A DNA stretch of 64,000 nucleotides from NCBI GenBank assembly GCA_026388155.1, contig JAPLKI010000005.1:1-64000 (forward strand). Reading direction: 5' to 3'. A program made the position numbers and the translations under genes. Source of the DNA: Elusimicrobiota bacterium. Lineage in GTDB: Bacteria; Elusimicrobiota; Elusimicrobia; Elusimicrobiales; UBA9959. Under the pieces are notes generated by a model. The model was given only the letters and a program-made list of their open reading frames with translations, did no database searches and was not told where the DNA came from. Below, piece after piece: positions 12,071 through 43,795 of this stretch; the first letter of the stretch is position 1, and each line of letters begins with the position of its first letter.

Positions 12071-13785
12071 CCACGCAAACCGTCAAGCTTTCCGTCTCGG
12101 TCCTTATAATGACGCAGAATGAAGAGGTGAACATCCGCTATGCGGTTGAAAGCGTCTTACCGTATTTTAACCAGGTTATAGTTGCCGATTCTTTCAGCAC
12201 GGACAATACATTGGCGATATTGAAAGAATATCCCGAAGTTGAAGTTTATCAGCATGTTTTTGAGAGCTGGGCTGAGCAACGCAACTGGATGCTGGCTAAC
12301 TGCGCCATACGCAATGAGACAGTGTTCTTTTTGGATGCCGATGAATATATTGACGGCAGGCTTGTTAAAGAGTTGGGCGGCGTTTTGCAAAGCGGCGCTG
12401 AATTTTCGGCAATTTATCTGGATAGAGAATATGTTTTTCTGGGCGGCACGCTTAAGTATGCGCATGGCCATCCGTTGACTTTCCGGGTTTTTAAAAAAGA
12501 AGGGCTTTCTTTTGTGGGGGAAGGCGCAAGGGAGTATGCCAAGGTTAATGGGCCTGCTATAACCTTTAAGAGCCCTTATATCCACCATGACCGCAATCCG
12601 GTATCTGTGTGGATACGCAAGCATAATAATAATTCCGACCGGGAAGCCGAGCTTTTTATTTCACGGGAAAAGCGGAAGGATGTGCTGCCTGTAGCGAGGC
12701 TTTCAGGCGCGCAGCGTTCCAAGTTGTGGGTCCGCGCCAATTTATGGAATAAGTTCCCGCTGCTTTCAAGACCGTTTCTCTACTTTCCAGCCCGCTATAT
12801 TCTAACGCTGGGTTTTTTAGAGGGTGTTCCCGCTTTTATTTATATTTACTTGAACGCATTTTTTTATCAAAGCCTGATTGATGCAAAGGTGTTATATCGG
12901 AAGGCTTGTGCAACGGACGAAGGGCCTGTCGGTGCGTCCTCTGTTCCAGATACCGATAAACTTCCCGTGACAGTTTTGATAATGGCGCAGAATGAGCAAG
13001 AGAATATCCGTTATGCCGTGGAAAGCGTATTGCCATACTTTAACCAAATAATAGTTGCCGATTCCTTCAGCACGGATAGGACCACTGAAATACTGAAGGA
13101 ATATCCTGGGGTTGAGGTTTACCAGAACACTTTTGAAAGTTGGGCTGACCAACGCAACTGGATGCTGGCTAACTGCGCTATCCGCAATGAAAAAGTCTTG
13201 TTCTTGGACGCGGATGAGTATATAACTCCTGAATTCGCACAGGAGTTTCGCCAAATCCTTGATTCCGGGGTCAACTTTGCCAGTATAATCATAAAGCCTT
13301 GTTTTATTTTTATGGGACGACAGTTACGCTACGCGTATGGGCATCCCAAGATAAAAAGAATATTCTCGCGGGCAGTGCGGTTTTTTGGGGTCGGCGCCAG
13401 GGAATATGCGGTTCTGAGCGGGGCTTGTTTGGAAATAATTTCTCCTATTATGCATCGTGATCATAAGCCTCTGTTCGCCTGGGTGGCAAAACATAACAAC
13501 AACTCTGACCGGGAAGCTGCCGCATATTTTGAGCGGAAGATCTTCCCGGGGGAGGCTGACGGCGGTTTGGCGGGTGGAATTAAAGCCAAGCTCTGGGTCA
13601 GGGGGAATATCTGGGACAAACTGCCTTTGCTGGCCAGGCCCTTTTTCTATTTTATATACCGCTATTTCTTTAAATTGGGGTTTATGGACGGCAAGCCGGG
13701 ATTCATTTACTGTTTCCTGCATTCATTCTTGTATCAAAGCATGATTGATGTTAAAATTATTGAAACCCGCAAAAAGAAAGTGTGA
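12067..13785 (+). CDS. Tandem double GT2 glycosyltransferase
   Basis: One 572-residue reading frame holds two complete, closely similar GT2 domains of the WaaE/LgtF type. Domain 1 opens with VSVLIMTQNEEVNIRYAVES near residue 9 and has its FLDADEYI DxD site near 90. Domain 2 opens with VTVLIMAQNEQENIRYAVES near residue 301 and has FLDADEYIT near 381. Further paired motifs (ESWA[ED]QRNWMLANCAIRNE, KHNNNSDREA, KLWVR) recur in both halves, so this is an internal duplication and fusion. The usual enzyme is one domain of about 250-280 residues. Both halves keep their acidic site. Each may add one sugar, or the pair may extend a repeated residue. Confidence 0.9.
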   Translation: MTTQTVKLSVSVLIMTQNEEVNIRYAVESVLPYFNQVIVADSFSTDNTLAILKEYPEVEVYQHVFESWAEQRNWMLANCAIRNETVFFLDADEYIDGRLVKELGGVLQSGAEFSAIYLDREYVFLGGTLKYAHGHPLTFRVFKKEGLSFVGEGAREYAKVNGPAITFKSPYIHHDRNPVSVWIRKHNNNSDREAELFISREKRKDVLPVARLSGAQRSKLWVRANLWNKFPLLSRPFLYFPARYILTLGFLEGVPAFIYIYLNAFFYQSLIDAKVLYRKACATDEGPVGASSVPDTDKLPVTVLIMAQNEQENIRYAVESVLPYFNQIIVADSFSTDRTTEILKEYPGVEVYQNTFESWADQRNWMLANCAIRNEKVLFLDADEYITPEFAQEFRQILDSGVNFASIIIKPCFIFMGRQLRYAYGHPKIKRIFSRAVRFFGVGAREYAVLSGACLEIISPIMHRDHKPLFAWVAKHNNNSDREAAAYFERKIFPGEADGGLAGGIKAKLWVRGNIWDKLPLLARPFFYFIYRYFFKLGFMDGKPGFIYCFLHSFLYQSMIDVKIIETRKKKV

Positions 13786-32893: not shown

Positions 32894-32911
32894 TCTTTTA
32901 TGTCTTAGCCT

Positions 32912-33085
32912 GAATCCTGCAGTCCAACCGGGTTTCCATTGAGAAATCAGGTGAACAGAAGTATTGCAGGATTCCCCGCAGTAGCGGGTCGGAAACCAAG
33001 CGCAATGCGCGCCAGGTTTCCGAAGGTGTATGCCGCGCGAAGCGCACCTGAGCTCCGCGAAGGGAAAGTTTCAACTGAAACTTTC
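32912..33085 (+). repeat. Multi-hairpin structured element, copy 1 (candidate structured RNA)
   Basis: Six helices can be drawn. P1 is GAATCCTGCA (32912-32921) with TGCAGGATTC (32965-32974). It encloses P2, ACC-G-GGTTTC with GAAATC-A-GGT (32927-32952). P3 is CCCGC-AGTA-GCGGG (32975-32988). P4 is GGAAACC/GGTTTCC (32991-33021) with an inner GCGC-AAT-GCGC. P5 is GGT/ACC around a seven-base bulge and GCGC-GAA-GCGC (33025-33048). P6 is GAAAGTTTC-AACT-GAAACTTTC (33064-33085). Copy 2 at 43594-43767 has the same length and the same six helices with different paired bases. Orientation (RNA strand or ssDNA) is unknown. Confidence 0.7.
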
Positions 33086-33223
33086 AGGTTAGCCGTCTGA
33101 GGCCGCAGGAAAGAGTTCACCGATACTGCGCCAAAAATGTCCTGGAATTCAACCGCTGAACCTGATAATCTCAGTCTTGTGTCTTTTCAGCGGGCACATT
33201 TTGAAAATGATAGAATTTTATAA

Positions 33224-37684: not shown

Positions 37685-38608
37685 ATGAAATACCTGGTGA
37701 CCGGCGGAGCGGGTTTTGTGGGCTCGAACATAGCCTTCGCGCTGGCGCGCGAACGCAAAGCCGTGGTGACGGTTCTGGATGATTTTTCCTCGGGGAATTT
37801 TAAGAATTTGCTTGGTTTTGAAGGCGATGTTATCGGCGAAGACATTTTAAGCCCCGGCTGGTTCGCCAAAGTCGGTAAAGTTGACGCCGTGTTCCACGAA
37901 GCCGCCGTCACGGATACCACGGTGATGGACCAGAAAAAAATGATGCAGGTGAACGTGGAGGGCTTCAAGGCGGTGCTTGCCTTTGCCGCGCAGTACGGAG
38001 TGAGGACCGTGGTTTACGCCTCCTCCGCCGGGGTATACGGCAACGGCGGATGCCCCATGAAAGAGGACTCTGTGCCGGCGCCGGAGAACGTTTATGGCTT
38101 CTCCAAAGCTATAATGGACAACGTCGCGCGTGATTTTGCCGCCGTCCACCCGGATATGGCCTTAACAGGGCTCAGGTATTTTAATGTGTACGGCCCTGGC
38201 GAAGCCTATAAGGGCAAAGTGGCAAGCATGATGTATCAGCTTTATCTGCAGATGAAAGCGGGCAAGCGCCCGCGTATTTTCAAATTCGGAGAGCAGATGA
38301 GGGATTTTGTATACATTAAAGACGTGGTGCGCGCCAACTTTAACGCCCTTGACGCGACTGGCTTCGGCGTTTGCAATGTGGCTTCGGGCAAACCCGAAAA
38401 TTTCAACAAGGTCGTTGATTGTTTAAACAAGGGGCTTGGTTTGAACCTGGACCCTGAGTATATAGAAAATCCGTACGCCTTTTATCAGAATAAGACTCAC
38501 GCGGACCTGCGCCGGACCAAGGCGCGCCTTAATTACAGGCCCGAATGGAACCTGGAAAACGGCATAGCGGATTATGTGAAAGAGCTGGAAAAGCGGGGAA
38601 AAGTCTGA
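37685..38608 (+). CDS. hldD: ADP-heptose 6-epimerase-like SDR inside the atp operon
   Basis: A 307-residue extended SDR: VTGGAGFVGSNIA at residues 4-16, VVYASSAGVYG near 114 and catalytic Y137xxxK141. The stretches NVYGPGEAYKGKVASMMYQLYLQ and FKFGEQMRDFVYIKDVVRANF closely match ADP-L-glycero-D-manno-heptose 6-epimerases, which make the heptose of the LPS core. It follows atpA by 12 bp in the same orientation and probably shares its transcript. The position between atpA and atpG is unusual. A UDP-galactose-type epimerase is the main alternative. Confidence 0.8.
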   Translation: MKYLVTGGAGFVGSNIAFALARERKAVVTVLDDFSSGNFKNLLGFEGDVIGEDILSPGWFAKVGKVDAVFHEAAVTDTTVMDQKKMMQVNVEGFKAVLAFAAQYGVRTVVYASSAGVYGNGGCPMKEDSVPAPENVYGFSKAIMDNVARDFAAVHPDMALTGLRYFNVYGPGEAYKGKVASMMYQLYLQMKAGKRPRIFKFGEQMRDFVYIKDVVRANFNALDATGFGVCNVASGKPENFNKVVDCLNKGLGLNLDPEYIENPYAFYQNKTHADLRRTKARLNYRPEWNLENGIADYVKELEKRGKV

Positions 38609-41665: not shown

Positions 41666-41745
41666 TCGCGGACAGCGCCAGAGGCCGCAACAGGCCGGTG
41701 TCACTGGAGGTGCCGTCTCAAATGGCCTCTGGCCCACAAACGGCC
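41661..41745 (-). repeat. Shuffled-block repeat, copy A
   Basis: Read on the minus strand this holds block X (GGCCGTTTGTGGGCCAG), block Z (ACGGCACCTCCAG) and block Y (GCTGTCCGCGAC). The same three blocks occur on the plus strand at 50285-50363, but in the order X-Y-Z. Confidence 0.55.
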
Positions 41746-41855
41746 AGGCCACAAGCAACAGATACAGGTTACAGACAAATTACAATTGAAAAAACAGCCG
41801 AAATAAGTCAGAATTCACTTGGGACTTGCGGAATTTCTCGGGGTCAGGGGGAGAG

Positions 41856-43435: not shown

Positions 43436-43795
43436 AAAACGTCCTCCACGCGCCGGCGGATTTGCCGTGCGCCCTAGTGGTCTTATCATAACACAAATAA
43501 GCTGAACATTTCAATATAATTTTAATAACGCCCGGCTGATTTTTAATTAACTGTTGCCAGGCGCCGGCTTTTTTAGTTATATTTCTATAACCCGAATCCT
43601 GCAAGTAAAGCCGATTTTCATCGGAAAATAGGCGGATAAAAAATCTATGATTCCCCGCAGGAGCGGGTCGTGAATTTCCAGCGCTATGCGCGTAAATTCA
43701 CGAGGATGTATCCACCGCGCAGCGGTCCACGAGCACTGCGAGGGGGAATTCTTCAACTGAAGAATTCGGATAGTGGAACAGGCAAAAAGGGGTCT
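43436..43795. other. 360-bp gap with structured element copy 2
   Basis: No gene. It holds the minus-strand leader of the small conserved protein (43436-43500), an AT-rich unassigned stretch, and the multi-hairpin element copy 2 at 43594-43767, which ends 28 bp before the ATG at 43796. Confidence 0.6.
43594..43767 (+). repeat. Multi-hairpin structured element, copy 2 (candidate structured RNA)
   Basis: Same length (174 nt) and helix order as copy 1. P1 is reduced to GAATC/GATTC (43594-43653). P2 is GCC-G-ATTTTC with GAAAAT-A-GGC. P3 is CCCGC-AGGA-GCGGG (43654-43667). P4 is GTGAATTT/AAATTCAC (43670-43701) with inner GCGC-TAT-GCGC. P5 is GGA/TCC around a bulge and CCGC-GCA-GCGG (43704-43728). 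P6 is GAATTCTTC-AACT-GAAGAATTC (43746-43767). Loop AACT of P6, the P2 G/A mismatch and the linker GAGC..YGCGA are conserved while the stems differ. It lies immediately upstream of a membrane protein gene. Confidence 0.7.

Follow-up and report, generated by a model that had tools for sequence, protein, structure and literature searches.

The window analysed here comprises 64,000 nucleotides from the genome of an Elusimicrobiota bacterium (contig JAPLKI010000005.1, positions 1 to 64,000, forward strand). It carries two copies of a hairpin-rich element on the plus strand, copy 1 in front of the atp operon and copy 2 in front of a membrane protein gene. The AtpD encoded here is 96% identical to that of Elusimicrobia bacterium UBA9634, which assigns the host to Elusimicrobia. 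The list of open reading frames places a nucleotide-sugar epimerase-like gene between atpA and atpG (window positions 37685-38608). In UBA9634, a RAYT-like Y1 transposase gene, read from the sequence only, lies beside atpC (L059, about 12100-12900). Four RAYT-like Y1 transposases are found in the source genome (G000; L157-L160), and none of those checked adjoins the repeats. The parts of the two element copies are as follows, with the kind of evidence in brackets.

32905-32908, plus strand: left-hand target duplication of copy 1, TTAG (sequence; family statistics)
32909-33088, plus strand: MITE copy 1, 180 nt, CCTGAATCC...TTTCAGG (sequence, BLAST, duplication statistics)
32909-32924, plus strand: terminal inverted repeat at the left end of copy 1, CCTGAATCCTGCAGTC (pattern shared with other ends)
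32912-32974, plus strand: helix P1, 32912-32920 with 32966-32974, the left terminal inverted repeat and its inverted internal copy (fold)
32975-32988, plus strand: helix P2, hairpin CCCCGC/GCGGGT (fold)
32989-33023, plus strand: helix P4, with outer arms 32989-32996/33016-33023 around an inner GCGC hairpin, 33000-33003/33007-33010 (covariation)
33024-33026, plus strand: P0, AGG, able to pair with the 5'-terminal CCT (fold, covariation)
33064-33085, plus strand: helix P7, terminal hairpin GAAAGTTTC-AACT-GAAACTTTC, which includes the right terminal inverted repeat (fold)
33073-33088, minus strand: terminal inverted repeat at the right end of copy 1, which reads CCTGAAAGTTTCAGTT as reverse complement (end comparison)
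33089-33092, plus strand: right-hand target duplication of copy 1, TTAG (sequence; family statistics)
43587-43590, plus strand: left-hand target duplication of copy 2, ATAA (sequence)
43591-43769, plus strand: MITE copy 2, 179 nt, diverged subfamily (sequence; site empty in G001)
43770-43773, plus strand: right-hand target duplication of copy 2, ATAG, which differs from the left-hand one at one position (sequence)

A preliminary description had reported two hairpin elements of 174 nt at these places. Both are indeed there and fold far better than shuffled sequences. Folded as RNA, whole copies gave z = -5.6 (copy 1) and z = -4.6 (copy 2), and the initial 114 nt of copy 1 folded as DNA gave z = -8.2. 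The length of 174 nt fell short, the real ends lying outside. The same account took the element to be present twice. Instead, the two copies belong to a large family, as BLAST with copy 1 gave 45 matches in the source genome (a 3.36 Mb MAG, 96.9% complete). Of the 61 related genomes searched, 19 gave matches; every one of these 19 belongs to a single family (f1), and the sister family gave none. No match to the left end was detected in viral contigs. One relative, G025, carries at least 46 left ends. The element is non-coding and mostly 174-187 nt long, with a range of 80-320 nt given deletions or inserts.

The ends of the element are terminal inverted repeats of 6-16 nt, CCYGAA...TTCRGG, which extend to CCTGAAnnnTGCAGTT in many copies. 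This pattern, present in the left repeat of copy 1, recurs as reverse complement at right ends of the element and also at the ends of the IS1380 element in the relative G010. For 71 copies both ends were recognised. In 48 of these the flanking YTAR 4-mers are identical, a value reached in 0 of 10000 permutations (p < 1e-4), and their first and last bases agree far more often than expected. A larger set revealed exact 4-bp YTAR duplications in 69 of 98 copies. Near-identical copies in G010 are flanked by TTAG/TTAG, CTAA/CTAA and TTAA/TTAA; thus the 4-mers are part of the target. Two copies (L010 and L011) at different sites have the same shortened left end (TAAGGAACAAAAG...), which looks as if an internal ATAA, followed by GGAACA, had acted as an alternative end.

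We compared the insertion sites with those of relatives, where the junctions could be aligned only roughly because the intergenic DNA has diverged. Upstream of the atp operon, G002 has an empty site at the place of copy 1, and G001 and UBA9634 have unrelated DNA there. The site of copy 2 is empty in G001. Relative to the neighbouring genes, the element was found 17 times in plus/plus, 11 times in minus/minus, 11 times in convergent and 4 times in divergent arrangement.

The parent element was reached via a DDE_Tnp_1 locus in G010 that bears similar ends. This IS (L223/L261) has one end CCTGAAAGTTGCAGTTG and, 1.7 kb apart, an inverted end CCTGAAAAATGCAGTTA adjoining TTAA, and it encloses a frameshifted IS1380 transposase. 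It is the sole assembled copy with both ends, and its flanks do not match (TTAA versus GGGG). A transposase 82% identical to that of G010 was found in G023. There, the left ends read TTAA followed by CCTGAAAACTTCAGTTG and the right end reads CAACTGAAGTTTTCAGG followed by CTAA; these ends were taken from different loci, there being no intact complete IS in one piece. The right end of the group-B MITEs matches the 17-nt end CCTGAAAACTTCAGTTG exactly. The transposase was identified as IS1380 by NCBIfam NF033539 (2.3e-72 and 1.7e-64) and as DDE_Tnp_1_4 by Pfam. In the source genome, what is left of this IS is a decayed 5' fragment (G000:C6:146836-146928), which adjoins a copy of the element (L008). 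The assembly of this genome (96.9% complete) has no intact IS1380 transposase gene, and searches of it for DDE_5 (IS701), DDE_Tnp_1_4 and DDE_Tnp_1 gave nothing significant. No IS1380 transposase was found in the G025 assembly either, despite its many left ends. The enzyme is thus absent, lost or unassembled in these two genomes. The left-end loci retrieved from G000, G010 and G025 included no autonomous copy with the left end of the MITE.

The element is short, lacks a transposase gene and has many copies, terminal inverted repeats, target duplications and empty orthologous sites, as MITEs do. These repeats, the YTAR duplications, the empty sites and the ends shared with an IS1380 element identify it as a MITE and not as an atp leader. 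We hold with high confidence that it is a non-autonomous MITE of the IS1380 family and, as part of the same judgement, that both window copies are ordinary insertions and not regulators of the atp operon. Judging from the shared ends, an IS1380 (piggyBac-like) transposase very probably mobilises it in trans. Such a DDE transposase, supplied by the larger relative, would recognise the CCYGAA...TTCRGG ends, excise the MITE and insert it at YTAR, from which the observed 4-bp duplication would result. In the piggyBac group, for which IS1380 serves as outgroup, the target duplication is mostly TTAA, with TTAG, CTAA and GTAA also reported (PMC10813416). The YTAR/TTAA duplications and the CCY ends fit this IS1380/piggyBac group. 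The known IS ends do not form the hairpins of the MITE, so the transposase fails to explain the fold.

At both ends of the MITE, a head-to-head doubling of the terminal inverted repeat makes a hairpin (P1 on the left, P7 on the right), and more hairpins lie between. In copy 1, P0 pairing would close a junction around P1, P2 and P4. RNAalifold predicted 39 pairs across 42 copies, and 21 of these pairs change on both sides. After addition of four pairs, double-sided changes were observed in 24 of 43, and 95.2% of the cells pair. The covariation score was 0.300, compared with 0.118 +/- 0.006 after shuffling and at most 0.089 when partners were slid. Thus the covariation that had been proposed from the two window copies is borne out in the larger set. 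These counts include many inherited changes, and copies swap whole hairpin modules, so independent events are far fewer. Such exchange was seen in L238, L252 and L257. The outer pairs of P4 have double-sided changes in 7 of 7 cases. P0 pairs the 5'-terminal CCY with an internal RGG; its third pair is C-G in 22 copies, U-A in 14, U-G in 5 and another combination in 1, and never C-A. In alignments read by eye, P6 is CCTGAGC/GCGAAGG in one group of copies, with two G.A pairs on the plus strand only, and GCCCGC/GCGGGC in another, all Watson-Crick. Stems contain more G.T than A.C (31 versus 11 cells, 13 versus 6 columns), a weak signal in favour of the plus strand. Fold energy gave no strand difference, with the plus strand lower in 21 of 42 copies as RNA and in 26 of 42 as DNA. 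The unpaired GTGTATGCC is better conserved than the P4 stem.

The covarying plus-strand fold is strong. Together with the G.T excess and the position of both window copies upstream of plus-strand genes, it would suit a structured non-coding RNA or a cis-regulatory leader acting on the atp operon and the membrane protein gene, as the preliminary description had suggested. We regard this as very improbable. A conserved leader is refuted by the absence of copy 1 before the same atp genes in three relatives; a conserved position before orthologous genes was not found in the relatives compared, and orientation to the genes is mixed. A structured RNA gene gained no positive support from Rfam or from gene context, which is not conserved. 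The Rfam comparison returned only two tRNAs in the window and no match to the element. Transposon ends and target duplications are likewise foreign to this explanation. Mobility itself had also been proposed, in the form of a single-strand-DNA element, and here the terminal repeats, 4-bp duplications and empty sites uphold the first half of the idea only. A Y1 transposase (IS200/IS605 or RAYT) that reads hairpins would account for a hairpin-rich, strand-specific element, and the source genome has four Y1_Tnp genes. To our knowledge, however, IS200/IS605 insertion makes no target duplication. Instead of this absence and the fixed cleavage tetranucleotide of IS200/IS605-RAYT (REP) elements, we observed real 4-bp duplications whose two sides vary together in near-identical copies, and on these grounds we reject RAYT as the mover. 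In addition, the ends are held in common with IS1380 elements, and within 1.5 kb of the RAYT genes no element ends were detected, apart from short chance matches. A Y1 origin therefore has hardly any probability left. From the duplications and the ends of IS1380 type, the likely enzyme is a double-strand DDE transposase, not one with the single-strand mechanism. The preliminary description had itself named a known IS end as a finding that would speak against its reading, and the ends do match an IS1380 element.

The main rival concerning the fold, which concerns the fold alone and is compatible with the MITE reading, is palindrome correction combined with module exchange. Here, template switching would perfect quasi-palindromes and hairpin modules would be exchanged, and the paired changes would arise without selection on the fold. 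The arms of P7 come in a few versions, each fully paired (9 perfect 9-mers, one out of register), and G010 copies that are nearly identical elsewhere are set apart by one whole paired block. Both observations, and the module exchange described above, are in favour of this process. However, the long-range P0 pair covaries too, the plus-strand excess of G.T over A.C is unexpected under palindrome correction, and the conservation of the unpaired GTGTATGCC above that of the P4 stem also speaks against it, as does the placement of nested inserts. We consider template switching without selection possible, but doubtful.

A second repeat is nested in MITE copies at about six or seven sites: the P3 loop, the top of P1, the P1/P2 junction, the internal loop and the base of P4, the junction after P4 and the P6 loop. 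By inspection, all of these are at loops or helix ends. With about half of the steps inside helices, the chance of such placement is roughly estimated, without a formal test, at 0.005-0.04. Copies that carry an insert moved as units, since the same insert is found at different loci with different duplications. Placement and movement together suggest that the fold matters to the element. Short derivatives of 70-130 nt with duplications were left out as evidence that the fold is dispensable, because they may have been deleted after insertion.

Thus selection on the folded strand of the MITE is likely, given the paired changes that keep the fold, the inserts at loops and helix ends and the weak bias of G.T over A.C. 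The most likely reason, which we infer, is tolerance. Copies in transcribed intergenic DNA would fold locally as RNA, or as single-stranded DNA during replication, and would be tolerated there. Tolerance at the RNA level has been proposed for BOX, ERIC and Correia elements (PMC3049150, PMC10969869), and by analogy it is our preferred, though unproven, role for the fold. A less probable idea, which we think unlikely, is that the interior is a selected folded RNA (or single-stranded DNA) device, a self-contained junction with the 5'-terminal CCY on the internal RGG, that gives the element or the host an activity. The device might, for example, act as an RNA in trans, regulate the transposition of the element or serve to process the transcripts into which the element has inserted. 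The transposon would then be selected for structure, beyond mere inverted repeats.

The MITE resembles IS1380 elements in its CCY ends, in the 4-bp duplication at TTAA/YTAR-type sites and in the identical 17-nt ends in sister genomes. In contrast to this parent, it has no transposase and instead has end hairpins and a folded interior. Like RUP and BOX of Streptococcus pneumoniae, it is small, high-copy, intergenic and tightly folded, with terminal inverted repeats and target duplications, and like BOX it is modular (PMC3049150). Movement by IS elements with similar ends has been proposed for RUP/BOX, and RUP ends resemble IS630-Spn1 (PMC3049150). Sequence and host are unrelated, and the text of that study contains neither the word covariation nor the word compensatory (PMC3049150). 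ERIC and Correia are also structured bacterial MITEs, and RNases cleave some of the transcripts in which they are embedded (PMC2759123, PMC10969869). However, ERIC-type elements duplicate TA and not YTAR, and their mode of transfer was called not elucidated (PMC2759123), whereas the MITE described here has an identified parent IS. Literature searches found no repeat catalogue for the phylum Elusimicrobiota. The element is a new MITE family of an already known kind, unusual mainly for its faithfully kept folded shape. What looked like a puzzling "unknown RNA" is thereby recognised as a defined family of transposons whose parent has been identified. With dozens of copies per genome, several subfamilies and nested inserts, it is an unusually clean natural data set for the question why bacterial MITEs fold so strongly, by selection or by mutational bias.

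A second MITE family in the source genome (L225, L226, L228 and L229; G000:C6 and C10) is 221-224 nt long and has the same ends and YTAR duplications. Its interior is unrelated, hairpin-rich and likewise shows paired changes, TTTTGCCC/GGGCAAAA and TTTTACCC/GGGTAAAA. With the same ends on a different interior, the ends are what mobility requires, and the interior of the first family (E1) is a property of its lineage. In some MITE copies (L013, L022, L026, L145 and L155), a third hairpin module, of the type CCCCGCTCTTTTG...CAAAAGGGCGGGG, takes the place of the inner part of P4 or interrupts it.

A short repeat, GCCGTYTGA-hairpin-ACGGCAC, was detected at 53 places in the source genome, and the reversed control pattern at none. 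Most of the variation in its inner 4-bp stem is paired. It nests in MITE copies without visible duplication, usually after G (CCTG, AATG, GGTG, GGCG, CTCG). It recalls CGTC-tagged REPs (PMC3733652). A related sequence is present in the window at about 41704-41755 on the minus strand.
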